From Eubacterium sp. (GTDB lineage Bacteria > Bacillota > Clostridia > Lachnospirales > Lachnospiraceae): DNA of 41,256 nucleotides. Each line of letters begins with the position of its first letter. Position 1 is the stretch's first letter. The stretch is from positions 1-41,256 of the forward strand of contig JAEFAB010000011.1 in the NCBI GenBank assembly GCA_016292095.1. Direction: 5' to 3'. Below the pieces are notes generated by a model, which was not told the origin of the DNA, did not search any database, and saw nothing but the letters and a program-made list of their open reading frames with translations. Position numbers and translations under genes: made by a program. Below, in pieces: positions 359 to 41,256 of the stretch.

Positions 359-1450
359 CTACTTTGGAACAACCGATCTGGTCTTCGTCCATTTTCCATA
401 TTTAGTACTAAATTGTCCAATACTAAAGGCTCTCATTCGGATATAATATCGGTGTCCTGATTGCAATCCCGTTACGCCTGTTCCGTCATATTGACTTCCT
501 TGAATCGTATGGGTGTAAGTAAGGTTTTTCGGAAATTTCTTGTTTTCGGAAACCTGCAATTGATATCCGCTGCAATTGTTTTTGTGCGCTTTCCAGTAAA
601 TATTAAATCGTTTCTTCATGCGCTCAACCTTTTTGATTTTTACAGTTTTCACACCTGATGAAGTCTTTTTCTTTGATTTCTTTGCTTTTTTAATCTCAAT
701 ATACTGATATTTCTTGTATGTCTTCTTTGATGGTTTCTTCTTGTTCAGCATAATTCGATTTGAATTAATTCCGGCCCTTACTGAAGGTGTGTAACCTTTT
801 CCAAAGGAAGGAATCTTGTTAAATGCTCCGGATGAACCATAAGAAGTAACTTTGGCCGATCCCTTTATGGTGCATTTACAATTATACGTAAATATTCCGT
901 AAGACATTCCGGTGGCTGACGTAAAAGCTTGTGCGTTAACTTTTGCTTTCCCACCGATTGTCAAACTGCAAGATGTAGAAATACCGGCATTCAAACGTGT
1001 TGCATCATTTGAAATCAATGTTAAACTTCCGTTTCCACTAATACTTGGTTTCGAAGCACCCATAGCGGGGCAAATTCCATAACTATACTCTGCATTTTCC
1101 ACATATGGAACAAAGATATTATTGGAGCCAATCAATTTGATTTTAAAAGACCCGCCCCTCACATTATAATAAATACCACATACATATCTGGTGCCTGAAT
1201 CATTCACCGTATGTGCATCCTGAATTAACGCGTTCTTTAATATCAACGTTTTCTTGGAAGCGTTGTATTTTACGGAGCCACCGTCACGCAAAACATCCTT
1301 TGCATTCTGGGAAGTAACTTGTACACCTCCAACCCAAACATTGTAATTTTTTGCTGAAACAGAAGAAGTATTCCACCACATCAACGTTCCCAAAAACAAT
1401 GCTACTACAACGACTTTTTCCATTGTTTTTTTCGAAATGATTTTTGCCAT
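359..1450 (-). CDS. Secreted surface protein with C-terminal fibronectin type III domain
   Basis: About 363 residues. The N-terminus is a signal peptide (KK-rich start, hydrophobic VVVVALFLGTLMWW, Ala-x-Ala-like end near VSAKNY). Residues about 35-210 are Gly/Asn/Ile-rich, with short beta-strand repeats (VWVGGVQVTS, LTLISND, LTIGGKAKV) typical of right-handed beta-helix surface proteins in Clostridia. A very Lys-rich linker (KKAKKSKKK) leads to a FnIII-like domain at the C-terminus (YQLQVSENKKF, YYIRMRAF). The ATG at 1450 is chosen because AAGGAGG sits 7 bases upstream. A TTG two codons earlier is too close to it. No LPxTG anchor. It is 16 bases behind the next secreted protein gene and probably co-transcribed. 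Substrate unknown. Confidence 0.8.
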   Translation of the reverse strand: MAKIISKKTMEKVVVVALFLGTLMWWNTSSVSAKNYNVWVGGVQVTSQNAKDVLRDGGSVKYNASKKTLILKNALIQDAHTVNDSGTRYVCGIYYNVRGGSFKIKLIGSNNIFVPYVENAEYSYGICPAMGASKPSISGNGSLTLISNDATRLNAGISTSCSLTIGGKAKVNAQAFTSATGMSYGIFTYNCKCTIKGSAKVTSYGSSGAFNKIPSFGKGYTPSVRAGINSNRIMLNKKKPSKKTYKKYQYIEIKKAKKSKKKTSSGVKTVKIKKVERMKKRFNIYWKAHKNNCSGYQLQVSENKKFPKNLTYTHTIQGSQYDGTGVTGLQSGHRYYIRMRAFSIGQFSTKYGKWTKTRSVVPK

Positions 1451-1466
1451 ACTCAATCCTCCTTCC

Positions 1467-3263
1467 CTATTTTACCGTAACTTTTACGGTTACACTTTTT
1501 GTTACGCTCTTATAAGTACCGTTTCCTGATGCAGTAATCTCTACCTTCAACTGATACTTTCCTTTCTTCAAACCTTTCTTTACGGTAATCTTTCCGTTCT
1601 TTGCCACCTTGAAGAATTTCTTAACGTTCTTCTTACCATTCTTTGCAGAAGCCAATTTGTAGGTCACTATTCCAATTGCATTCTTTACTACGAAAACTTT
1701 TTTACACTTCAGCACCTGATTTTTCTTTTTCAGTTTTTTAAACTTAAGACTTGCTTTCTTAACCTTTACGGAAAGTGTATTTGTTTTCTTTTGCACTGTC
1801 GGTGTTGTCTTTTTTTCAGAAGTACTGCTCTTTCCCAATTGGATGCCATTGTCTGTAATGTGAGCATTTCCACCAATCTGTGCTAACACGTCCTTCACTG
1901 ATTCCGGCAATTTACTCATTGGAATTACTTCACCGGTACCCGCTTCGTAAATATAGAAGTTTCCGGAACCGTTAATGCTTCCACTATTTTCAAACCAATA
2001 ATGATCCGTATTGTCATAATTGATGAAACCACAATAAAGATTTCCGTCAAGTTTCATGTCTGCATCTTTATTATTGATAATACTTCCGCCCATCTGACTT
2101 TTGATGCTGGCTCCCTTTTCAACAGTAATCTCACTGTAATTATCAATATTGCCACCCTGCGTCGTAGCAAGCAATCCGCCAGATTTCACTTCAATAGTTC
2201 CATGATTTTCAATTCCTGCTTCTAGTTCAGCCCCCTTGTTTACAATGACTTTCACACCTTCCGTCACAATGATTTCTGCCATGGTTCCAATAGATTCACC
2301 TACCGGAATTTCAACATTTCCCACAAGCTCAACAATGGTATCCATATTGCCCGGAACATTTTCGCCTGCAACAACACGCTGTGAAGTTGTAGTATTCTTC
2401 AATTCCTCAAAATTGGAGGCCGTTACCTTTTTGTAAATGTTCACATCTTCCCAATTTTCAAACCGGCTAGTCTGTCCCAGTTGTGTCATTATCTGCACAA
2501 TCAGGTCATCCATATCGGAAACCGGCAGCTCCTCATGAGATGCTTCAAGTAGTATCAAATCTCCGTTTCCGACTACTGTTCCCTTATTTTCAAACCAAGC
2601 TACATTCTCATTACCCATTCCAATGCAAGCACAGTCAAATTGTCCATTCAGTTGGATGGTTCCCTCCGGATTATTGACAATTGTAGTTCCAAAACGTGAT
2701 TCCATTCTGGCACCTTTTTGAATATCAATCGTGCCATAGTTCACAGCTTCGCTGCCCTGAGTTGTAACATATGATCCACCAGCTTCTACTGTTACTGTTC
2801 CGTTATTGATTTTGCAGCAAACTGCTTTTCCACCGTTTTTAACAAGGATATCACCATTATTCGTGTTCAAATCCGCTTCCGTTGCACCACCGTCATTAAT
2901 AATCACTGTACCATTATTAATGACCTTGCTGTTTGCAACCCCCTCACCTTCATAGGATGGCCAAAAACTTCCAAGTTTTCCTCCCCTATCAATTGTTAAG
3001 GTAACGCCTTCTGAGATTGTTAAAACCGTATCGTTGTAATTATTGATATGACCCGGATCCAGATAAATCATACAATCTTCATCAATGGAAAAACTTGCGA
3101 TAATATTGATTGCATCAACCGGAGTCTCCTTATTTAATGCAGATTTCAATTCTGCCTCACTGGAAACATTCAATGTTTCTCCGGCAAGCACTGTAACCGA
3201 TGGTAATGTAAATGTGGATAATACCAGTGCCACTGATACTACTACGGATGTCATTCTTTTCAT
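1467..3263 (-). CDS. Secreted beta-helix-like protein with internal duplication and Lys-rich C-terminal domain
   Basis: About 598 residues. A signal peptide (MKRMTSVVVSVALVLSTF) is followed by two homologous halves of roughly 200 residues. Each is made of short strands ending in NNGT or NHGT-like turns and carries the same landmarks: TTQG, then a block around INN, then WFEN, then GNGD or GSGN, then EA. This is typical of repetitive parallel beta-helix surface proteins. The last 110 residues are extremely basic (KKASLKFKKLKKKNQ) and resemble the Lys-rich immunoglobulin-like domains common in Lachnospiraceae exported proteins. The start is the ATG at 3263, with GAGGAGG 7 bases upstream. An upstream in-frame extension lacks a ribosome site. 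No catalytic motif is recognised. An adhesin or wall-associated protein is the best guess. Confidence 0.8.
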   Translation of the reverse strand: MKRMTSVVVSVALVLSTFTLPSVTVLAGETLNVSSEAELKSALNKETPVDAINIIASFSIDEDCMIYLDPGHINNYNDTVLTISEGVTLTIDRGGKLGSFWPSYEGEGVANSKVINNGTVIINDGGATEADLNTNNGDILVKNGGKAVCCKINNGTVTVEAGGSYVTTQGSEAVNYGTIDIQKGARMESRFGTTIVNNPEGTIQLNGQFDCACIGMGNENVAWFENKGTVVGNGDLILLEASHEELPVSDMDDLIVQIMTQLGQTSRFENWEDVNIYKKVTASNFEELKNTTTSQRVVAGENVPGNMDTIVELVGNVEIPVGESIGTMAEIIVTEGVKVIVNKGAELEAGIENHGTIEVKSGGLLATTQGGNIDNYSEITVEKGASIKSQMGGSIINNKDADMKLDGNLYCGFINYDNTDHYWFENSGSINGSGNFYIYEAGTGEVIPMSKLPESVKDVLAQIGGNAHITDNGIQLGKSSTSEKKTTPTVQKKTNTLSVKVKKASLKFKKLKKKNQVLKCKKVFVVKNAIGIVTYKLASAKNGKKNVKKFFKVAKNGKITVKKGLKKGKYQLKVEITASGNGTYKSVTKSVTVKVTVK

Positions 3264-30652: not shown

Positions 30653-31525
30653 TTAGTTTCCTAAAATTCCACCGATTACTGATCCAACTGCTCCACCAAC
30701 AGAACCTGTTGCACCACTGCTACTTCCTGTATTTCCACCTTCCGGTGTAGCAATTAATCCGTTATTACGAACAGGAGCTACAAGAATTTTACCTGTTCCA
30801 CGGTATACGTTTACAAGACCTTCACCTGATGCTGCTGATCCAAGTAATGATTTTGTAGATTTTTCAACTGTAAAATCTAAAGAACCTGACCATGCAATTG
30901 CCTGATTACCGTCAATCTTAACAATATCATTTTCTAAAGTAATTTCGATTAATTCTTCTCTTGGAACCGGGCTTTCCAATACAGCAATACCTGTACCTTT
31001 TAATGATGTATTGAAGAGACCTTCTCCACCCAAAACTGCTGAGCTGAGATTGCTTCTTGCAACAACCTTCATTTCTACTGTGCTATCGCATGCAAGGAAC
31101 ATTCCATCTTCGATAACGATATCTCCAGCCCACTCGCTAATATCTTCAAACAAAATATATTTATATGTAGGTTCAAGAATTACCTTACCTGTACCTTCAT
31201 ATTTAGGTTTTACAGCGCTTTCACCTGTAACCTTACTTCCAATAAATTTCTTCATGAAATCTCCGGCGCCTTTTACGTCTGAAGAAATGTTAACATTTCC
31301 TAAAATCATCTGCATAGCGCCTGCCTGAAGAATAATGCTGCTGTTGTTCAGGTCAGCAATAACCTGTCTTTTCTTAATGTTCATCTTTGATGCATAATAG
31401 TTGTAAAACGCTGAGTATGAATCTGTTGATACGTCATGATCGTATTCCAATACAGAAAAACATCCCTTTCCAGGTAATACCTTTCTAATTTCAGCGTTCT
31501 GATCCTGTAATTTGATCTGATACAT
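30653..31525 (-). CDS. AIM24 family protein
   Basis: 290 residues. The core (about 1-255) has the beta-strand-rich AIM24/TIGR00266 pattern with repeated Gly-rich turns: GKGCFSVLEYD, LQAGAMQMILGNVN, GTGKVILEP, GGEGLFNTSLKGTGIAVLE, SGEGLVNVYRGTGKILVAP. A disordered Gly/Ser tail (GNTGSSSGATG) ends it. The role of bacterial AIM24 proteins is unknown. The ATG follows AAGGAGGACAAACT. It has its own strong promoter and no signal peptide. Confidence 0.9.
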   Translation of the reverse strand: MYQIKLQDQNAEIRKVLPGKGCFSVLEYDHDVSTDSYSAFYNYYASKMNIKKRQVIADLNNSSIILQAGAMQMILGNVNISSDVKGAGDFMKKFIGSKVTGESAVKPKYEGTGKVILEPTYKYILFEDISEWAGDIVIEDGMFLACDSTVEMKVVARSNLSSAVLGGEGLFNTSLKGTGIAVLESPVPREELIEITLENDIVKIDGNQAIAWSGSLDFTVEKSTKSLLGSAASGEGLVNVYRGTGKILVAPVRNNGLIATPEGGNTGSSSGATGSVGGAVGSVIGGILGN

Positions 31526-31556
31526 AGTTTGTCCTCCTTAAATTTTTCGTACTTAT

Positions 31557-31585
31557 ATCATACTACATACGCACTATACTGTCAA
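31557..31585 (-). promoter_or_regulatory. Sigma-A promoter of the AIM24 gene, fused to the upstream terminator
   Basis: On the minus strand TTGACA (31585-31580), 17-base spacer, TATGAT (31562-31557). The TT of the -35 box is the end of the T-run of the terminator for the glucanase gene, so the two elements share bases. Confidence 0.78.
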
Positions 31586-31631
31586 AAAAAAGACCGTTGC
31601 CTTTGTGAAATTTTTTCCAAAGACAACGGTC
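31584..31631 (-). terminator. Intrinsic terminator of the glucanase fusion gene
   Basis: 14-bp arms 31592-31605 and 31618-31631 (one mismatch, a G-U pair in RNA) around a 12-base AT-rich loop, followed on the minus strand by seven T residues. Confidence 0.9.
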
Positions 31632-31637
31632 CATATT

Positions 31638-34600
31638 TTACTGTGCTTCGTTTGGTTTAATAATCGTATTTCCCCAAAGGAAATCAACTTTATCATAGTT
31701 CTTATTTACTACCGCTAAAACTTTGCTGTACAGGAAGTTATGGCCTGCTTCTGTAGGCATTTTAACGTTCTGATACAGGTAGTTACTTACAGAGTAAATG
31801 GAGTATGATTTAATCGGGCTGTATACATAAGTTCCGTCTTCCAATAATGCGTAAGATCTTACTTTGTATTTTGCTGACAATGCTGCGGCACTGGAGCCAC
31901 CAAATGTCATTGTCATTGCAAAGCAGTTTGCAGTATCGGAATTGCCCATCTGAACACTTAATGGTGCACCCTGATAATCGTAATCCGCTACATAATAGTT
32001 TTCGCTTCCTACATACATATCTTCTTCGGATACATCAAATACTGTTCCGTTATATTCTGCTAAGGAATAAACCAATCCGTAAGAAGTAACGTTCTTTCCG
32101 TTAATTGTCGGTTCAGCGGATGCAAGTACTCTTACACCACCAATTCTTCCTTTACTGTCCTGAACAGTGGAACTAACCTGATATCCTAAAATTGCAGTAT
32201 CCTTGGAAACAGTCAATGTCTCTTCATTCTGAACCGTTTCTTCAGTTGTAGTTTCTTCCTTTGTTGTTATTTCTTCTGTAGTTGTTTCTTCTACAGTAGT
32301 AACTTCTTCTGTAGTTGTTTCAATTTCGCCTTCAAGGATTTCGTCTTCTAAAACATCATCTTCTACGATCTTTCCAGCCACATATCCCTTTGGATTTCCT
32401 GATTTAGAATATGCTTTACCTAAAGAAGTTAACTGTCCCTTCTGAGGATCGTTTTCACCACAGAAGAATAATCCGCTGGCACCATTACCATACTTTTCTG
32501 TGTTGGAACCATCAAATGGGAACCATGCATAACGTTCGATATAATCAATCTTATCCAATCTTGGAAGAATATTGTTTACAAAGTTTACAATTTCTGTTCT
32601 CTGCCAGTTTCCTTCATCCGGTCCACCAGTCCAATCAAACGGCTGAGCCTGAGTCCACTGTCCTACGCCCCATTCTGTAATCCAAATTGGTTTTCCGGTT
32701 CTTTCATGAACTTCTCTCAAAATATCCAAAATAAATTCTCCCGGATAATCAAAGTAGAAATGAACTGCTGTGAAGTCATCATGTTCTTCTGCCTGAACCA
32801 TTAACTGATCGTATTTACCATACCATCCACCAACAGTTTCATAATCATTTTGTGTGTCCGGATACAGAGTTGTTGGTACAGATGTACTTGGTGAACTAAC
32901 CTTAACACCGGCTGCCTGAATCTTCTTAACCTGCTGCCATAATTCTACGACACGTTCCGGAGACATATTTGCCTGATCAGAAACATCCGGTTCGTTGAAA
33001 GTTAATACGTAATTGTAGTTTTCGTATTCTTTGTCATTAATCCATTTCATTTCCTTGGAGTTTGTATCGAAGTTACCCCAAAGCATTGGAATAAATTCTA
33101 CAGATTCCGGAGCATCGTTTAATGGTTCTGTTCCCCAAGTGTAATACCATGAAAGATTCAATTCTGAAATCTTTGAAACCTCACTCTGCCAGATTCCCAT
33201 ACCTTTCTTTGAAACAAAGAATGTACGCAAGTTACTCTTAATCTTGCTTCCGTTTGCCAATTTGGCAACTACATATAACTTATGAGAATTAACATTTACG
33301 CTGTTGTATTTTACTTTATAACTGTTATTGGAACCAACCACAGTATCTACCAATGTATCATCTACATATACTTCGTATTCTGTAGCTCCTTCCAATTTTG
33401 TAAATTCAATATCAATAATACCTGCTGCAACTAACTGTCCCTTTGTTGGGGATGTAATTGCATTGTTTTTCCAATCTGCATATGGTCCTGTTGCAATGTG
33501 TTCTTTTTCGTCATAGATTGGATCATCCTTATCAATCGGATTATCTGCCACTTCATCATAAGTCGGTGTAACACCAACTTCTTCTTCGATTACTCCGGAT
33601 TCATTTCCACCGGTCTGATAGTAATCCTGAATACTTGTAGACTGCTGATTGTTGTAAAGCAACAATGCCTGTCTTGCATATCCACCGCCGGAACCGTCAC
33701 CTGTTGTAATAGAAGGTCCTGTTCCGTTTACGATATGATTAATTCCTACAATTGGTCCGCTACTATTAGCAATTTCAACAGTACATACATTTTCTAACAT
33801 AACCCCCGGCGCGTCCGGTACTTCCACTGCATTGTCAAGGAAAATACTTGCCCCACCGGTATTAATAAATACATCATAGCAGCCTAAGCCAACTGCGTAA
33901 TGATTTTCTACATTGTTTGAAACTTTATAAGATGCATATCCCTTAACAGTTCCGTCATGACTCATCCAATCATCCTGATTTTGTGGATCATAACATTTTT
34001 CATTCTGAAGGAAATAGGTTGTTCCATATTCCCCTCTCCACAATACGTCATATTTTTGGAAATGTTCAACCATTAGTCCATATAAAGTAACGTAATCACC
34101 GTTAACTACAACACCGTTGTCTGTCGTATTCAAATCCCAACCTACACCGGCACCATGGTCAGCTCTCCAAATCCAGAAGTGATCACCGATTACATCATTA
34201 CTGTTAATTACAACGGCGTCTTTTGTAGATGCCACCCCTCCGTGAACACCACCGACACGTACGAATACGTCCTGAAGAATTGTAGGGTTAGAATTATGTC
34301 TCTTATTTGCCCCACTCTGTCCTGCAACGATCATATTCTTTGAATAAGAATCTGCATCCAAAATAATACCCGCTACAGTAACACCGTCTACATCATCAAT
34401 CTTAACACCTGTCTCTGTATTATCCGGAATAATTGTTGCAAGTCCTAATCCTAAAACAATGGTATTTGCTCTCTTGATATGGATTGGTTCTTCTGCATGA
34501 TAAATACCAGGTGATAAAATAATATTCTTTCCTGCATCTAATGCTGCATTGATGGATGCTGCATTGTCACGGTCTGCTCTGGCAATATAGAAGTCATCAA

Positions 34601-35834
34601 TATTCATGATGGTTCCTTCACCCATATCAGTCTTAGACCATGAGATACCGTTTGTTTCTGTACGAAGTGCCGGCTTGAATACTTTGTATTCCTTTGTATC
34701 TTCATCGAAGAATAAGAACGGCTTTTCTCTTAAAGCATCAGTCTTATCAAGAAGTGTGTACTTACCACCACTTCTCCAGTTTGTTCTTCCAAGTCCGCTC
34801 TCTAAATCATAAAGTGGGTACTTGGATGTATTTTTATTCCATTCATTTCCCTGAATTCCGGTACATCCCTGAGCAACCATGTTCCAGTTGATTCCGTAGA
34901 AATCTCCTTTGATATAGTTGTTTCTCAAGTAGTACTGCTGCTGTGACCAGGAACCTAAGTTTCCTTCAATCCAGCTGTCGGCTACGTAACCACCGCTTGC
35001 CCAGCCGTCCCACATATAATTTAGACGCATGCCACGGTCTACGTATAATCTTCTTGCAGGAGCTGCCTGTGAAACTGCCCACTGGAAATCCCAGTATGCA
35101 TCGTTGGTTTCAAATCCAACCGGTGAGATGGATACATTTTCGATACCCATCCAGAAGTTACAAGTTACATTTCCCTTATCAAGTACCGGTGGAACGTGGA
35201 TATTTTTCAATTTAACATCGGTAGGTAATTTACCTAAACCAAGCACCTGCATATAATAAGCCATCTTCATTTCATTGGCGCTGATATTGGAATAATCCCC
35301 TGCCTTAAATGCAAACGCATATCGACCTTCACCAAACTGCTGTCCGGAGTGGGATGTTCCATTTCCGTCAACGTCACCCTGGTGTAAGTAAATCTTATTA
35401 ATTGTCTGGTATACGGTTTCTGTATCATCCTTTGGTGAGAATACATACATATCCTCTCCAAACATTTCAATTTCTAAAGAAATCGGATCCGATAACGTAT
35501 CGTTATTTCCTTGAACTGCTACTTTATAGTAGTTTTCGTATTTTACGCTGTTTGGATTATTGTCCGTCCAAGTTGTTCCATCAACAGTCGCAACATACTG
35601 ATAATTTCCATAACGACTTTCTGCACGATAAATATCGTAGGTATTGTTACCGTTGTATTTATCCCACTGAATTGTGAAATGATTGCCGCTTTGTTCAAGA
35701 CGTAAATTGGTTACCGTGTTCGCAGTAGCGGCAAATACAGCTTCAACACCAGAAAAGCTGGTATTTCCTACAAACCCGGAAATAGTAAGAACCATTGCCA
35801 ACATAAAGGCAACTACTCTTCTTCTGCTATGCAT
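31638..35834 (-). CDS. Giant secreted GH55-like / GH128 beta-1,3-glucanase fusion
   Basis: 1398 residues. Signal peptide about 1-36; FnIII domain about 40-122; GH55-like right-handed beta-helix about 129-735, with blocks YYMQVLGLG, QWAVSQAAPARRLYVDRG, WASGGYVADSWIEGN and DHFWIWRADHG that match GH55 exo-beta-1,3-glucanases of Streptomyces; Ig-like domain about 790-875; GH128 catalytic domain about 878-1140, with LSWYYTW, FIPMLWG, acid/base E948 in LTFNEPD and nucleophile E1054 in WITEWG; Thr/Glu linker about 1157-1205; C-terminal module about 1212-1398 shared with the chitinase. The ATG follows AAAGGAGGAG. Both catalytic parts are expected to act on beta-1,3-glucan. No LPxTG or SLH anchor. Confidence 0.88.
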   Translation of the reverse strand: MHSRRRVVAFMLAMVLTISGFVGNTSFSGVEAVFAATANTVTNLRLEQSGNHFTIQWDKYNGNNTYDIYRAESRYGNYQYVATVDGTTWTDNNPNSVKYENYYKVAVQGNNDTLSDPISLEIEMFGEDMYVFSPKDDTETVYQTINKIYLHQGDVDGNGTSHSGQQFGEGRYAFAFKAGDYSNISANEMKMAYYMQVLGLGKLPTDVKLKNIHVPPVLDKGNVTCNFWMGIENVSISPVGFETNDAYWDFQWAVSQAAPARRLYVDRGMRLNYMWDGWASGGYVADSWIEGNLGSWSQQQYYLRNNYIKGDFYGINWNMVAQGCTGIQGNEWNKNTSKYPLYDLESGLGRTNWRSGGKYTLLDKTDALREKPFLFFDEDTKEYKVFKPALRTETNGISWSKTDMGEGTIMNIDDFYIARADRDNAASINAALDAGKNIILSPGIYHAEEPIHIKRANTIVLGLGLATIIPDNTETGVKIDDVDGVTVAGIILDADSYSKNMIVAGQSGANKRHNSNPTILQDVFVRVGGVHGGVASTKDAVVINSNDVIGDHFWIWRADHGAGVGWDLNTTDNGVVVNGDYVTLYGLMVEHFQKYDVLWRGEYGTTYFLQNEKCYDPQNQDDWMSHDGTVKGYASYKVSNNVENHYAVGLGCYDVFINTGGASIFLDNAVEVPDAPGVMLENVCTVEIANSSGPIVGINHIVNGTGPSITTGDGSGGGYARQALLLYNNQQSTSIQDYYQTGGNESGVIEEEVGVTPTYDEVADNPIDKDDPIYDEKEHIATGPYADWKNNAITSPTKGQLVAAGIIDIEFTKLEGATEYEVYVDDTLVDTVVGSNNSYKVKYNSVNVNSHKLYVVAKLANGSKIKSNLRTFFVSKKGMGIWQSEVSKISELNLSWYYTWGTEPLNDAPESVEFIPMLWGNFDTNSKEMKWINDKEYENYNYVLTFNEPDVSDQANMSPERVVELWQQVKKIQAAGVKVSSPSTSVPTTLYPDTQNDYETVGGWYGKYDQLMVQAEEHDDFTAVHFYFDYPGEFILDILREVHERTGKPIWITEWGVGQWTQAQPFDWTGGPDEGNWQRTEIVNFVNNILPRLDKIDYIERYAWFPFDGSNTEKYGNGASGLFFCGENDPQKGQLTSLGKAYSKSGNPKGYVAGKIVEDDVLEDEILEGEIETTTEEVTTVEETTTEEITTKEETTTEETVQNEETLTVSKDTAILGYQVSSTVQDSKGRIGGVRVLASAEPTINGKNVTSYGLVYSLAEYNGTVFDVSEEDMYVGSENYYVADYDYQGAPLSVQMGNSDTANCFAMTMTFGGSSAAALSAKYKVRSYALLEDGTYVYSPIKSYSIYSVSNYLYQNVKMPTEAGHNFLYSKVLAVVNKNYDKVDFLWGNTIIKPNEAQ

Positions 35835-35878
35835 ATTTTCTCCTCCTTTGATTTCCGTCCACTCATACTTCTAATTTC

Positions 35879-35907
35879 ATTCTATTTTTTAAAAACGTTT
35901 TTTGCAA
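35879..35907 (-). promoter_or_regulatory. Sigma-A promoter of the glucanase gene with a palindrome in the spacer
   Basis: On the minus strand TTGCAA (35907-35902), 17-base spacer, TAGAAT (35884-35879). The spacer holds the perfect palindrome AAAAACGTTTTT (35891-35902), with the central CG seen in many LacI-family operators. A repressor bound there would block polymerase (inference). Confidence 0.55.
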
Positions 35908-35942
35908 TATTGAATGGTTTTTGAACTATTTTTTTAATTTTT

Positions 35943-35959
35943 TTGTGCATTTTGCACAA
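35943..35959. promoter_or_regulatory. Inverted repeat TTGTGCA-TTT-TGCACAA, candidate regulator site
   Basis: Perfect 7-bp arms with a three-base centre, about 36 bases upstream of the glucanase -35 box, a position suited to an activator. The regulator is not identified. Confidence 0.5.
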
Positions 35960-36103
35960 GAAAAGGAGGTTTTTGGAATTCGAGAAAAGAATTCATTGAG
36001 CATATTTCATTTTTTTATTCTTCTGTAAAAGAATTTTTTTTGAAAAAACAGCCTGTTTTTATATGAAAATGTTTTTATCATCAAATTTCACTTCAAATTT
36101 CCA

Positions 36104-36141
36104 ACAAAAAACAGCTATGAACACCATGTCCATAGCTGTTT
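36104..36141 (-). terminator. Intrinsic terminator of the LRR gene
   Basis: Arms AAACAGCTATG (36109-36119) and CATAGCTGTTT (36131-36141) flank an 11-base loop. On the minus strand the stem ends in a six-T run. Confidence 0.85.
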
Positions 36142-36154
36142 CTCATTCGTTGAT

Positions 36155-38050
36155 TTACTTAAATGTGAAATGATATGTTTTTGAGTTACACTTCTTTTCT
36201 GTATCTTTATCGGTTCGTTCAAATACATTAATCTGGCAGTAAATATCCGAACTTCTATCAAGTTTTGTCATGTCAAATATTTCTTTTGCGTTTTCAAATG
36301 ACTTCGTTTGAGCGTTGCTTAAGTCACTCTTTGTAGAATAGTTTAAAACATACTTACTTGGTACATAATATCCTGATTTAATTGAAAATCGAATTTCTTT
36401 GAGTGATTTTGGAATTGAGATTTCAACGACATTGTTATTCCCGTTGAAAAAGCTGTTAGCATAGAATGATTCTACACCTTCCTGCAGTTCAACACGCTTA
36501 ATATTTTTTCCTCCGAATGCACCGTTACCAATTACTTTAATATTTCCGGTAATAGTAACTTGGGAAATCGCTGTATTTTCAAACATTCCATCCGGAATGG
36601 ATGTCATATTTTTTGATAATGTAACTTTCTTTAAGTGACTTGCATCGACAAAGCAGTCATCTCCACATTTCTTTACTGAATTCGGAATGACAATTGATTT
36701 CAAAGGTGTTGCTCTGAAAGCCTCCTTTCCGATTGTCTGCAATTTCTTTGGAAGTGTAATTTTTTTGATTGTAGATTGCTCAAATGCGCCGTTTCCAATG
36801 GTTTTGAGTCCCTTTGGCAATTTCACTGACTGCAGTGATCTTGTATAAAAAAACGCTCTATTGTCTATTGTCTTCACTGTGCTTGAAACAGAAACTTTTT
36901 TTACCTTACTTGATCCAAATGCATATGGTGCAATTGTTTTCACACCTTTTGGAATAGTAACATTTTTACTTTTTCCTTTATATGTAATTAAAACTTTATC
37001 ATATGAAATATACATTCCATTTACTTTTTTCACACCGTACTTTTTGGAAAGATACTTGTTGCAGTCATCTCGAACATATTCTCTATGAAGTCGTGAAATA
37101 ATATTTCCAGGCAGCTTCTTTGTATGGAACTTGAATTTGCACTCTTCCATCGGATCTCTATATCCGCCACTATGTTCTGCGTCATCAATAAACGTCTTTA
37201 CACTTGCAGGTACATCTACTGTTTTTAATTTGTCACAGAAAAATTTACTATAATCTTCCGGTTCATATGCATAGCAGAATGAATTTAACGATACTGTTTT
37301 ACATCCCTTACGAATTTTCAGATTTTTAACACTTGTTGCAACAAAAACTAACTTTTTCCCATTCTTTGTATAAATACACTTACCGAATGTCTTATATTTT
37401 TTATCTGTTTTAGCTGTCTGAACTTTCTTTGCTGTATGGAAAAATTTCATCACACTTGGGCTAAAACCTGTGTTTAAATTTACAACGTCAGTACTTGGAA
37501 GAATTGTATAACGTAATTCTTCCGGGTATCCAATATCTTCTTCTCCGTCAACCCCTTCTTTAATCGAAAAATAACCAGGCATTGTCACAGACTTAATCTT
37601 GCCATTTTCCATACAATGAATACCGATTGTTTTCACGCTACTTGGAATTACAATATTGTCCATCTGTAAGCCGGCTAAGCTGTAAAAACCTAAAGTTGTA
37701 ACTGTATTTGGAATTGTAATTTTCTTTAAGTTCTTTAGATTTTTAAATGCATTATCTCCGATAGCTGTAATTCCTGATTGAATGACAACTTCTTTGATTT
37801 CATTCACGTCTACAGTCTTTCTATAAGTGTTATCGGCAATTCCGGTTCCACTGACGGTAAGCACACCATCTTTAAATTGATATGTGACAGAACTGTTTGT
37901 AATTTCTTCATTAAATAATTTGTTTTCAAGAGTCTTCTGCGTTACTGTTTCTGCAAAGACCGTATAACTACTGTTAATCCCCCCTATTGCCCCTGCATTT
38001 ACATTGGACAATGCAATCGCTGCTGCTATTACTAATGCTACTTTTTTCAT
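36155..38050 (-). CDS. Secreted BspA-like leucine-rich repeat protein
   Basis: About 631 residues. Signal peptide (MKKVALVIAAAIALSNV). From about residue 85 there are many LRR_5 (BspA/TpLRR) repeats with the consensus IGDNAFKNLKNLKKITIPNTV: for example IDNRAFFYTRSLQSVKLP, IGNGAFEQSTIKKITLP and IGKEAFRATPLKSIVIP. A repeat-free insert occupies about 190-340. The C-terminal 90 residues are a separate non-repeat domain. BspA-like proteins mediate binding to host or microbial surfaces. The ATG at 38050 is 9 bases from AAGGAGG. An ATG at 38056 is only 3 bases away. It lies between the glucanase and chitinase genes. Confidence 0.88.
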   Translation of the reverse strand: MKKVALVIAAAIALSNVNAGAIGGINSSYTVFAETVTQKTLENKLFNEEITNSSVTYQFKDGVLTVSGTGIADNTYRKTVDVNEIKEVVIQSGITAIGDNAFKNLKNLKKITIPNTVTTLGFYSLAGLQMDNIVIPSSVKTIGIHCMENGKIKSVTMPGYFSIKEGVDGEEDIGYPEELRYTILPSTDVVNLNTGFSPSVMKFFHTAKKVQTAKTDKKYKTFGKCIYTKNGKKLVFVATSVKNLKIRKGCKTVSLNSFCYAYEPEDYSKFFCDKLKTVDVPASVKTFIDDAEHSGGYRDPMEECKFKFHTKKLPGNIISRLHREYVRDDCNKYLSKKYGVKKVNGMYISYDKVLITYKGKSKNVTIPKGVKTIAPYAFGSSKVKKVSVSSTVKTIDNRAFFYTRSLQSVKLPKGLKTIGNGAFEQSTIKKITLPKKLQTIGKEAFRATPLKSIVIPNSVKKCGDDCFVDASHLKKVTLSKNMTSIPDGMFENTAISQVTITGNIKVIGNGAFGGKNIKRVELQEGVESFYANSFFNGNNNVVEISIPKSLKEIRFSIKSGYYVPSKYVLNYSTKSDLSNAQTKSFENAKEIFDMTKLDRSSDIYCQINVFERTDKDTEKKCNSKTYHFTFK

Positions 38051-38133
38051 ATTCATTTTCCTCCTTGAAAATATTATTTTTGTTTTGCTCTGTAATTAAA
38101 ACGCATATAAACGAAAAAATATTTCATTTATTT

Positions 38134-38167
38134 CAAAAAAAACCTCTCGGCAAATTTCACCGAGAGG
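38134..38167 (-). terminator. Intrinsic terminator of the chitinase gene
   Basis: CCTCTCGG (38143-38150) pairs with CCGAGAGG (38160-38167) across a 9-base loop, followed on the minus strand by an eight-T run. It separates the chitinase from the LRR gene, so the two have separate transcripts unless there is readthrough. Confidence 0.88.
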
Positions 38168-38189
38168 GTTTCTTCTATACTTATTGTTA

Positions 38190-40931
38190 TTATTGTGGCT
38201 TCACTAAAGAACTCTGCCAGTCATATTCCAATTCTTCATAACTTGGATTTACTACTTTCAAGATTGAGTTGTACAAGTAATCGTGTCCTGCCAACGTTGT
38301 CATTTTATATCCCTGATACAACTGATCTGCAATTTCATAAACACTCTTCTTACGAATGTTGCTGTACTGATAAGTACCGTCAGCGTACTTAATATATGCT
38401 CTGACGCAAATCTTAGCTGAATAGAATTTTGCATTCTTGATAAACTTCATTACCATTGCATAACTCTGAGTTGTTGAATTATTATATCCAACATTAACTT
38501 TTCCGACATCTGTTGCAACATAACTGTATACCGTAGAATTTGAACTGTTGACTACAATGTCGCTGTCTTCAGCATAATCGTCCAAACCGTAAACCAGTCC
38601 TGCTTCCTGAACTTCCTTCTTCGGATCAGCAATTGTAAAGACTGTTCTGAAGCCTTCTGCTCTGGTACTGATCTGGAAACCGTTTACATCAACAGTAGCG
38701 GCGTGTGTTGTAGCGGAAGAAGATTCTTCCTGGCTCTGTGTTTCGGAAGGTTTCTCTGTTGTTGGTTCTTCCGTTGTAGGTTCCTGTGTTACTGTTTCGT
38801 CTTCTTCAGAATTTCCATTCTGCTCTGTAATATAAGAACGATTGAGGCGAGCAATTTCTGCATTGACTTCACTTGCCATAGACATTCCATTAATCTTGAA
38901 GTTCTTCATTCCAGAAGTACAGCACTTCATCATTCCGGTAAATTCAACAGTCTGTCCTGCATCTAATGCACTGCTGGATGTTAATGTTACTTCTGTAAAG
39001 TCGCTATTTGCAGCATCCTTTGTTGTTGCAACACCACCCCAGCTGGATGTGAAGTTACTTGATTTTGGTAACCAAAAACTAAAGGTAAATCCTGCCGGAA
39101 TAGATACACTGGAATTATTCTTCACTTTAATGCTATAAGTGTAATTTGGATGGTCGTACTTTCCTGCGCTAGTGTCAACGCTGAAATCCAATACACTGTT
39201 TTTGTAATCAATATCTGATGTGACACGAGAAGGTCCTGCTGCCTTAAATGCATTGTAAAGCTTTGTTGTTAATGTATCGCCAATGACATATTCGCCTTTA
39301 GCTTCATCATAATCATAGTCACCATGCATTACCCAAATCAATACACCACCAAGGTTCTTACTATTTACATAATTGATTCGTTCCTGAATCGACTCTTCAT
39401 CTTCAAAAGTAAGGAATGTATTATTTGATGCATTCCAGATGTGAGGAACTTTTCCTACATCATCCCAGTAACGTTTATAATTAGAGTTTTTCTTCATTAC
39501 GTTCATAACATGCCATAATGGATTTGCTCCTGCTGCCACTTCGTTTCCGTTGGCATCCAGGTCACACCAAAGGTTTAAGTTATCCGTACTGTTGGTCAGT
39601 GGTGAACCGGAAGATCCATGAAGACCTGTGCTACCACCGGATACATTTGTCCAACCTCTTGTATAATATGGTACACCCATCAGGATTTTTTCTGACTGAA
39701 CTCTTCCTCGATAGAATTTATAAGACCAGTCAAAACCAAGAGTTTTTACATCCTGATTTGCTGTTTCGCCATCGGCCGGGTCCGGATAAAGATTTGCCTG
39801 ATTTTCTACGTAATTGTTCCAACCACCATGGTAGTCATAAGACATGATAGATACAAAATCAAGGTAATCCAAGAAAGAAGAATCCTTCTGTCCACCAAGT
39901 ACCCAAGAAGAAGCAGAAACTGCAGAAGTTAACCAATAATATTTTCCATCTTCCTTTGCCGCCTTTGCTAAATCTTCACTTAAGATTTTGATAAACTGTG
40001 CATATCTTGTTGCCACACCGGCTCTGATTGATTCGGTAAATTGTGTGTAATTTCCTGACATTGGAGTTTCAGATGGGAATTCGAAGTCAATATCAATTCC
40101 ATCAAATCCGTACTGTCTGATAAAACGAACTGCAGATGCTGAGAACTTTCTCATAGAAGCTTCATTCTGTGTTGCATACCACAATCCTTCAGAAGCGCCC
40201 CATCCACCGGTAGAAATCAGAACTGTTACATTTGGATGCATCTTCTTTAATGTGTGCATCAAGTTGAACTGTCCATAGTAACCTAATGATTCATCCATCT
40301 TGATTTCTACACCGTCATGGTAGAACTTACGGTCTGTAAATTTATTGTTAATGTCATTCTCCACATCACCTGCTTCCAATTCACAAGTGTTTTTATTTAC
40401 TACACCGAATGCATACTGAACATGTGTTAATACGTCCCACTGCAAATCTGCAATGCTGAAATGTTCATGAGCATCGGAATTAATTGCGTAGTTTGGAAAA
40501 TATCCAACAACCTTCTTATTGTAGTAAGTTGAAGGAAGTTTTACACCCTGAATATTAGTTCCAACTACCGGATTCAATGTTTCAGGCTGCTGGCCCTGAT
40601 TTCCCGGATTTCCAGTTGTTCCTGTTTCTCCTGAATTTCCTGATGTTGTTGGGTCCGGTGCTGATGATATTAATTTCCATTCTCCGGAAGCAACACCATC
40701 GGCTGGATTTTTCCCCTGTGACCACCACTGTGCTTCATAAATTGCCCCCTGGTACATTGCCTGATCTCCCTTGTTGTAAACAGTGCTGCTATTCCATTCT
40801 GCAACGGCTCCTACAGAAACAGTGGATAACGGAGTTGTTACTCCTGCCATTGAGAATGATGTAGTAATCAGCGCTGCTGCAAGACAACCTACCAATACTT
40901 TCTTTGCTTTCTTCAAAAATACTTTTCTCAT
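38190..40931 (-). CDS. Secreted multidomain GH18 chitinase
   Basis: 913 residues. Signal peptide about 1-43; CBM5/12 chitin-binding domain about 43-88 (AEWNSSTVYNKGDQAMY, EAQWWSQGKNP); Gly/Thr/Pro linker; GH18 barrel about 138-565 with LISTGGWG and the catalytic DGIDIDFE (acid E284), plus SIMSYDYHG; a chitinase-associated beta-sandwich domain about 580-690 (NYTYSIKVKNNSS, FSFWLPKSSN); Thr/Glu/Pro linker about 703-742; C-terminal module about 747-913 homologous to that of the glucanase fusion. The ATG at 40931 follows AAGGAGC. An upstream TTG (40955) has no site. It hydrolyses beta-1,4-linked chitin outside the cell. Confidence 0.95.
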   Translation of the reverse strand: MRKVFLKKAKKVLVGCLAAALITTSFSMAGVTTPLSTVSVGAVAEWNSSTVYNKGDQAMYQGAIYEAQWWSQGKNPADGVASGEWKLISSAPDPTTSGNSGETGTTGNPGNQGQQPETLNPVVGTNIQGVKLPSTYYNKKVVGYFPNYAINSDAHEHFSIADLQWDVLTHVQYAFGVVNKNTCELEAGDVENDINNKFTDRKFYHDGVEIKMDESLGYYGQFNLMHTLKKMHPNVTVLISTGGWGASEGLWYATQNEASMRKFSASAVRFIRQYGFDGIDIDFEFPSETPMSGNYTQFTESIRAGVATRYAQFIKILSEDLAKAAKEDGKYYWLTSAVSASSWVLGGQKDSSFLDYLDFVSIMSYDYHGGWNNYVENQANLYPDPADGETANQDVKTLGFDWSYKFYRGRVQSEKILMGVPYYTRGWTNVSGGSTGLHGSSGSPLTNSTDNLNLWCDLDANGNEVAAGANPLWHVMNVMKKNSNYKRYWDDVGKVPHIWNASNNTFLTFEDEESIQERINYVNSKNLGGVLIWVMHGDYDYDEAKGEYVIGDTLTTKLYNAFKAAGPSRVTSDIDYKNSVLDFSVDTSAGKYDHPNYTYSIKVKNNSSVSIPAGFTFSFWLPKSSNFTSSWGGVATTKDAANSDFTEVTLTSSSALDAGQTVEFTGMMKCCTSGMKNFKINGMSMASEVNAEIARLNRSYITEQNGNSEEDETVTQEPTTEEPTTEKPSETQSQEESSSATTHAATVDVNGFQISTRAEGFRTVFTIADPKKEVQEAGLVYGLDDYAEDSDIVVNSSNSTVYSYVATDVGKVNVGYNNSTTQSYAMVMKFIKNAKFYSAKICVRAYIKYADGTYQYSNIRKKSVYEIADQLYQGYKMTTLAGHDYLYNSILKVVNPSYEELEYDWQSSLVKPQ

Positions 40932-40977
40932 TCTTTCGCTCCTTACACTTTTCAAAAAAATGTTCTTTCAATTTATC

Positions 40978-41006
40978 ATTTTAAAAACTCTCCCCTAAAA
41001 AGTAAA
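40978..41006 (-). promoter_or_regulatory. Possible sigma-A promoter of the chitinase gene
   Basis: On the minus strand TTTACT (41006-41001), 17-base spacer, TAAAAT (40983-40978), about 46 bases before the start. Both boxes deviate from consensus and the region is AT-rich, so this is tentative. Confidence 0.4.
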
Positions 41007-41137
41007 CACCATATAAAAAAATGCACCCCTTTTTGAAATTCTGTTCAAATTTTGTATTTCCTTGGTAATTGGGGCAATTTTTTTCAAATTCGGAACCGTT
41101 TTCAAAAAAAATGATACCTTTTTCTGAAATATGGACA

Positions 41138-41166
41138 TTGTTTGAAACCTTTTTATTATTTAATAT
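41138..41166 (+). promoter_or_regulatory. Possible sigma-A promoter of the partial exported protein gene
   Basis: TTGTTT (41138-41143), 17-base spacer, TAATAT (41161-41166), 37 bases before the TTG start at 41204. Divergent from the chitinase promoter. Confidence 0.4.
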
Positions 41167-41203
41167 GAAGAAAATTTGTATTTTTAATAAGGAGGAAAGC
41201 ATT

Positions 41204-41256
41204 TTGAAATCCAAATTGAAGCTCATGCTTAGTCTTGCTCTGGCACTTGTTCTCCC
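41204..41256 (+). CDS. Start of an exported protein, cut by the window end
   Basis: Seventeen complete codons only. AAGGAGG lies 8 bases before a TTG start, and the frame reads KSKLKLMLSLALALVL after the initiator, a basic start followed by a Leu/Ala hydrophobic core, i.e. a signal peptide or signal anchor. Divergent from the chitinase, so it may share its regulatory region. Nothing else can be said about the product. Confidence 0.65.
   Translation, partial: MKSKLKLMLSLALALVL

Follow-up and report, generated by a model that had tools for sequence, protein, structure and literature searches.

A multi-copy, mostly C-terminal module on exported enzymes of a Lachnospiraceae genus, a candidate for CBM37-like attachment

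A glucanase and a chitinase encoded in one window of Eubacterium sp. DNA (the whole stretch that was analysed, 41,256 nucleotides) end in the same module of about 170-190 residues. This module is nearly confined to one genus and occurs in 36 ORFs of its own genome, where it mostly stands at the extreme C-terminus of proteins that appear to be exported. We lean towards the view that it is a non-covalent attachment module that would work like CBM37 of Ruminococcus albus, probably at the cell surface of the producer. A new, CBM37-like attachment module is the best reading because homology to CBM37 itself was not detected with the sequences compared, SLH domains are absent from the 11 genomes searched and type I dockerins from the own genome, and the module proteins are unlike sortase substrates. 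We infer attachment, to the cell surface or to the substrate, from the position of the module, from its exchange in orthologues and from the analogy with CBM37.

The glucanase gene (31638..35834, minus strand) encodes 1398 residues with a signal-peptide-like N-terminus. Its catalytic core (Glyco_hydro_cc, PF11790; 32409..33173, minus strand; residues 888-1142, Pfam E = 1.5e-43), which we take to be of the GH128 type, precedes a Thr/Glu-rich linker (32205..32370, minus strand; approximate limits, set by eye on the sequence) and the C-terminal module (31641..32204, minus strand), which is defined by homology to the chitinase C-terminus, by an alignment of 31 rows (A1) and by an AlphaFold2 model. 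The chitinase gene (38190..40955, minus strand; TTG start) encodes 921 residues, also with a signal-peptide-like N-terminus, and has an alternative in-frame ATG at 40931, the end coordinate given by the initial annotation. From the N-terminus, all on the minus strand, it combines a CBM5/12 (PF02839; 40677..40799; residues 53-93, Pfam E = 1.9e-7), a GH18 catalytic domain (PF00704; 39318..40514; residues 148-546, E = 3.1e-62), a ChiC domain (PF06483; 38886..39293; residues 555-690, E = 3.4e-12), a Thr/Glu/Pro-rich linker (38700..38825; approximate limits, set by eye on the sequence) and the module (38193..38699), the last identified by BLASTP homology and alignment A1. The chitinase therefore has a substrate-type binding module of its own, the CBM5/12, in addition to the shared C-terminal one. 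Between the two enzymes lies a BspA-type leucine-rich-repeat protein without the module (36155-38056, minus strand). An 11-pair stem with a T-run behind it (38143-38167, minus strand), located just past the stop of the chitinase gene, is the longest-stemmed G+C-rich terminator-like site in our scan of 31400-41256, a region with no excess of promoter-like sites (26 versus 33.2 in shuffles) or of terminator-like sites (5 versus 5.4).

BLASTP of the two C-termini gives 72 identical residues in 202 (36%; E = 3e-29), and none of 1000 shuffles of one partner (mean 38, maximum 74) reached the local score of 253 obtained with the linker-trimmed ends. The alignment of the last 170-185 residues proposed in the initial annotation is thereby confirmed as homology over about 170-190 residues. 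Its landmark pairs are present at both C-termini (GYQVS/GFQIS, GLVYSL/GLVYGL, VRSY/VRAY, DGTYVYSPI/DGTYQYSNI, LYQNVKM/LYQGYKM, AGHNFLY/AGHDYLY, VVN, and a closing W plus KP), and the Thr/Glu-rich linker that it placed before each module is seen in both sequences. The glucanase module has no Pfam match, the best Pfam matches of the chitinase module (E = 0.2 and 0.23) are below the cut-offs, and neither module matches NCBIfam; the best match among PDB sequences (E = 0.15) is not credible as a solved relative. We recognised no description of the module in the literature searched, which took in few subscription papers. The statement that LPXTG, SLH and dockerin signals are missing also stands. No LPXTG-like motif occurs in the last 55 residues of these two proteins or of any of the 36 module ORFs, whose tails contain no 17-residue window with a mean hydropathy above 1.32. 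SLH (PF00395) was found in none of 11 genomes searched, and dockerin (PF00404) is absent from the own genome (G000), with one match each in two of the 11 genomes. Sortases are encoded in all 11 genomes searched, so another anchoring route exists.

With the glucanase end as query, the own genome (2.30 Mb in 74 contigs, 91% complete) gave 38 matches falling in 36 ORFs, one ORF having two copies and one short fragment being dropped; the module is more widespread than the initial annotation had stated. A profile of the 31 C-terminal copies (A1, from which the copies of the other five ORFs were excluded) places the module 0-8 residues from the stop in 31 of the 36 ORFs. Signal-peptide-like starts were recognised by a simple heuristic in 33 of them, two others being cut at a contig edge and one falling under the threshold. 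These counts agree with the earlier proposal of a new, unnamed domain on several exported enzymes and with its prediction that a profile search would yield mostly secreted proteins with the domain at the extreme C-terminus, at least in the own genome; neither of the contrary outcomes that it had named, a match to a named domain or a lack of further family members, came up. One ORF (L042:4401-5090, 230 aa) encodes hardly more than a signal peptide and the module. Among the five ORFs with other arrangements, L029:876-2840 and L033:382-3606 carry the module directly after the signal peptide, L030:3577-10281 has two internal copies, and L031:7265-8917 and L250:366-10694 have divergent modules 30 and 129 residues from the end, respectively. 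Because copies occur directly after the signal peptide and internally, the initial annotation's idea of sorting is disfavoured in so far as it means a C-terminal processing signal. The two ORFs with divergent modules are neighbours on contig C17, where L250:366-10694 (3443 aa; CotH, F5/8 and CARDB) adjoins L031:7265-8917 (547 aa). Proteins similar to this pair are found in G001, G006, G011 and G020, and low-copy genomes contain adjacent protein pairs with divergent modules, some of them with CotH. Judged by eye, such pairs may represent an older form of the system.

The fold predicted by AlphaFold2 from alignment A1 (mean pLDDT 95.7, pTM 0.88) is, with confidence, a beta-sandwich followed by a C-terminal helical hairpin. 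In the modelled glucanase module of 188 residues, the sandwich spans approximately residues 3-135, with predicted strands at 3-15, 21-30, 37-51, 72-76, 93-100, 112-121, 126-128 and 132-135, and the hairpin spans 136-166, with predicted helices at 136-145 and 152-166. Foldseek found a single PDB match at E <=0.001 (KirBac3.1, TMq 0.28), Fn3 chains from E = 0.009 (TMq about 0.3-0.4), no full-length PDB match to the whole predicted fold, and no viral relatives at E 0.001. As these matches are weak and partial, the sandwich seems Fn3/Ig-like at best, and the PDB search turned up no close relative of the complete module. Five residues (G7, Q9, R25, G43 and Y144) are invariant in the 31 modules of A1, and H155, L158 and L163 of the hairpin are near-invariant. 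Conservation is somewhat higher in the hairpin (136-170; mean top-residue frequency 0.60) than in the sandwich (0.49), and the mean charge of the 31 modules is -2.7.

A Pfam scan of all 36 module ORFs, with substrates inferred from family names, identified fungal-wall-type catalytic domains in 13: GH18 in six, PF11790 and GH16 in two each, and GH81, an alpha-1,3-glucanase domain and GH76 in one each. Such families for chitin, beta-1,3-glucan, alpha-1,3-glucan and mannan suggest fungus-directed feeding, and yeast or plant callose, or other material, could also be the target of these enzymes. The GH76 ORF (L249:2114-5179, plus strand; G000, contig C71), in which two CBM6 stretches accompany the module, adds mannan to the fungal-type polymers. 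GH18 genes in rumen Firmicutes MAGs have been taken as a sign of chitin use in a report that also refers to a chitinolytic bacterium previously grown from the faeces of cows and sheep (PMC8992543). Another 17 ORFs combine the module with other domains, namely GH43 (two), GH115, an alpha-amylase domain with CBM26, a pectate-lyase-like domain, one sub-cut-off GDSL-lipase-like match together with F5/8 domains, peptidase M64, subtilase S8, CotH (two), DUF6273, DUF4832, DUF7910 (at or below the cut-off), CBM5/12 alone, a C-type lectin with F5/8, an F5/8 domain, and CotH with F5/8 and CARDB in the 3443-aa protein, which is the third CotH partner. The remaining six have no domain match, among them the 230-aa protein of signal peptide plus module and one ORF cut at a contig edge. 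A further CBM, lectin or F5/8-type domain, including CBM5/12 and CBM26, is present in 20 of the 36 ORFs. Since the partners act on many substrates and often have CBMs of their own, a shared attachment function would fit better than a single substrate specificity. In a related MAG, one protein (L075:5866-7107, plus strand) has the module right after its signal peptide, followed by a cohesin domain (E = 1.4e-8).

Our survey of 40 genomes (the own genome and 39 relatives) found matches in the own genome and in 20 of the 22 others of the same genus, and in none of 17 genomes of other genera. Four genomes have high copy numbers (G000, 38; G004, 41; G007, 39; G009, 35), and the other 19 of the genus have 0-13; the MAGs among them are possibly incomplete. 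At higher ranks we searched samples of larger groups. Four of 392 genomes of the order matched, three from the same genus (the own one included) and one, G309, from another genus (E = 6.5e-6), and G019, a further member of the same genus, gave no match in this search; at class level only the own genome matched among 391. The distant domain in G309 (L234:1399-1890, plus strand), from another genus of the same family, resembles the module over 46 columns, which take in the VRAY-DGT-YS strands and the first of the two helices (hhalign 90.8%). It differs in being internal, ahead of a Gln/Glu/Gly-rich tail, and the remainder of the module is left unaligned by hhalign. Used as a query, this domain matched three of 299 family genomes. 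Searches for plasmid relatives by tblastn gave none for the query P0004 at E 0.01 and none for the L234 domain at E 1.

A further set of 77 loci from named MAGs was found through the hairpin motif of eight alignment rows and consists of the best 80 of 110 matches. Within these loci, 93 of 104 distinct modules lie at most 15 residues from the stop, nine start at residue 40-48, directly after the signal peptide, and two are cut; the counts are not independent, because the MAGs are closely related and several modules are near-duplicates. By their record titles, the MAGs of this set come from uncultured bacteria labelled 'Lachnospiraceae bacterium' or 'Eubacterium sp.', and they bear isolate codes (RUI, RUG, SIG and Lapin among them) that presumably denote rumen and rabbit. 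Two tandem modules occupy one C-terminus in G014 (L128). Several low-copy genomes encode proteins of 437-455 aa whose C-terminus consists of the sandwich without the helical hairpin (L131, L133, L134, L135, L136 and L147). A relative of the module on a protein of this length is found in seven of 14 genomes compared, and the one that was scanned (L135) is a GH16 protein; these hairpin-less proteins are possibly an ancestral or a reduced form.

The C-terminal position of the module can be followed in two protein families, for which homologues of the own triple-GH18 chitinase and of the own CotH proteins were read to their C-termini in stretches of sister genomes. Out of 22 homologue ORFs, six have the module, 12 have a lysine-rich, Fn3-like end picked by eye, two are cut and two have other ends; L230 and L231 (no row) and GH18 proteins of about 600 aa are left out of this count. 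In one own CotH protein of 905 aa (L026:6593-9307) the module starts at residue 738. Its alignments with five lysine-rich-ended proteins, from five sister genomes, are at 50-60% and run from residue 17, 48 or 211 to residues 732-751. Similarly, alignments of the own triple-GH18 protein (L038:2031-7232; 1734 aa, module from residue 1564) with the lysine-rich-ended proteins of G013 and G019 run to residues 1542 and 1560, whereas its alignment with the G002 protein continues to the end and the module ends of the G006 and G016 proteins are aligned too. The second own CotH protein aligns to the end with module-bearing proteins of G013 and G008. As the alignments with lysine-rich-ended orthologues stop near the start of the module, in some species one C-terminal domain takes the place of the other at about the same boundary.

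The two domains share this C-terminal position in orthologues, and the lysine-rich one is Fn3-like by eye, but no profile similarity was detected between them (hhalign 1.5% with alignment A3 of the lysine-rich domain). Their charges are also far apart, the last 90 residues of the 12 lysine-rich ends having a net charge of +28 to +39 as against the module mean given above. No ORF carries both domains among the module-ORF entries of the own genome (42, with overlapping stretches entered twice) or of the named set (106), all from stretches that had been picked around modules. The lysine-rich domain is found in all 23 genomes of the genus searched, with 19-55 matches each, and the two classes of C-terminal domain therefore coexist. 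A genome-wide replacement of lysine-rich domains by the module was rejected, since the counts in the four high-copy genomes (39, 45, 41 and 37) are no lower. Because wall association of the lysine-rich domain is only presumed, we describe the exchange as an interchange of C-terminal domains and not of anchors. The window itself contains an ORF ending in a lysine-rich Fn3-like domain (362-1471, minus strand; i-E = 7.6e-11), and this gene, at 359-1456, has no Pfam match at 1e-4.

The closest parallel in deployment is CBM37, of which three R. albus strains are reported to have 77, 51 and 102 copies (PMC4081043). It occurs on secreted enzymes of many families, on CotH and on LRR proteins, at the C-terminus where its position is described (PMC4300822), and has been reported to bind both polysaccharides and the bacterial cell wall (PMC4954948). 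Like CBM37, the module is lineage-restricted, multi-copy and mainly C-terminal (31 of 36 ORFs), and is attached to diverse secreted enzymes and to three CotH proteins. On the sequences compared, the module is not a member of CBM37. The reference was the C-terminal part of a xylanase that R. albus 7 encodes on pRUMAL02 (L049:22029-24734, minus strand); it has no detectable homology to the module (hhalign 4.0% against a single CBM37 sequence and 2.6% against two, over 20 aligned columns), and the CBM37 stretch used is 93 residues long, with limits set by eye, as against about 170 for the module. Dockerins offer a second parallel, as a single tag shared by many kinds of secreted enzymes in cellulosomes (PMC3413522), in which CotH-like proteins and proteases have been reported as well (PMC12484212). 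The module shares with dockerin-cohesin systems the use of one tag on a broad partner set including CotH and proteases, but it differs from dockerins in lacking, by eye, a calcium-loop repeat, in its predicted beta-sandwich and hairpin, and in the absence of PF00404 from its own genome.

The main rival to attachment at the producer's surface is that the module is a substrate-binding one, forming a new family of CBMs directed at a wall glycan of fungi or microbes, which would place the enzymes on prey or debris instead of on the producer. We regard this as a serious though rather doubtful alternative. That 13 of the 36 ORFs have fungal-wall-type catalytic domains fits it, the relative of the module on the GH16 protein L135 indicates that the link to GH16 may be old, and the proteases, the amylase and the sub-cut-off GDSL-lipase-like match would suit digestion of whole fungal cells. 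Against it stand the other partners of the module (CotH proteins, an amylase with CBM26, GH43 and GH115), the 20 ORFs that already have a carbohydrate-binding-type domain, and the alternation in orthologues with a domain of strongly positive charge, unlike that of the module. Docking to a surface receptor protein, with the module as a dockerin-like tag for a scaffold and the hairpin as its interface, appears unlikely. It would account for the higher conservation of the hairpin, with Y144 invariant and H155, L158 and L163 near-invariant, and for a partner list like that reported for dockerins (PMC3413522; PMC12484212), but core packing could explain the hairpin conservation equally well, and the sole cohesin match seen is the single domain on the N-terminal-module protein of another MAG (L075).

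Many secreted clostridial enzymes have Ig or Fn3 domains that lack known ligands, and the weak fold matches of the module include Fn3 domains. A purely spacing or stabilising role, with no specific partner, is nevertheless very improbable, given the five residues conserved in 31 of 31 modules, the terminal position and the protein that consists of signal peptide plus module. Least probable of all is that the module acts as a C-terminal signal for sorting or secretion and is removed after recognition, like those of type IX secretion in Bacteroidota. The extreme C-terminal position in 31 of 36 ORFs recalls such signals, but the module is also N-terminal and internal, as seen in the copies after the signal peptide (L029 and L033, and nine of 104 in the named loci, among the best 80 of 110 matches) and in the two internal ones of L030:3577-10281. 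Two tandem copies at one C-terminus (G014, L128), the signal-peptide-like N-termini and the Gram-positive lineage of the Lachnospiraceae also argue against it. For non-covalent attachment, in turn, we count the terminal position, the export signals, the exchange in orthologues, the diversity of partners, the CBM37-like partner set and the signal-peptide-plus-module protein. Against it we count the orthologues that keep the module (the second CotH family in G013 and G008, and the triple GH18 in G002, G006 and G016), the presence of a sortase route, lysine-rich domains that are not fewer, and the fungal-wall-type share, which fits substrate binding too.

If the module does serve attachment, a module-bearing enzyme would first be exported by the Sec route, and its flexible linker would then allow the module to attach to an envelope polymer or protein of the producer. 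The enzyme would thus stay at the surface, with its catalytic domain and its own CBM free to reach the substrate, much as reported for CBM37. The module may also release towards the substrate or form a bridge to it. More tentatively, it is possible that the module serves for attachment in a new, non-cellulosomal surface system with a new fold combination, in which chitinases, beta-1,3- and alpha-1,3-glucanases, a mannanase, proteases and CotH proteins would be gathered into a fungus-digesting surface.

Should the attachment reading be true, the strategy of CBM37 would have been invented a second time, apparently independently, with one non-covalent, mostly C-terminal module equipping much of a secretome. 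Here this secretome has an unusual share of fungal-wall-type enzymes, and the bacteria, to judge by record titles, live in the rumen and elsewhere in the gut. The module would also deserve a family name of its own, as a CBM or as an anchor, and could possibly be used as a display tag for anaerobes. The orthologues that differ mainly in the presence or absence of the module provide natural comparisons, and the bacteria that carry it would be a testable candidate for fungus-feeding bacteria of the rumen.
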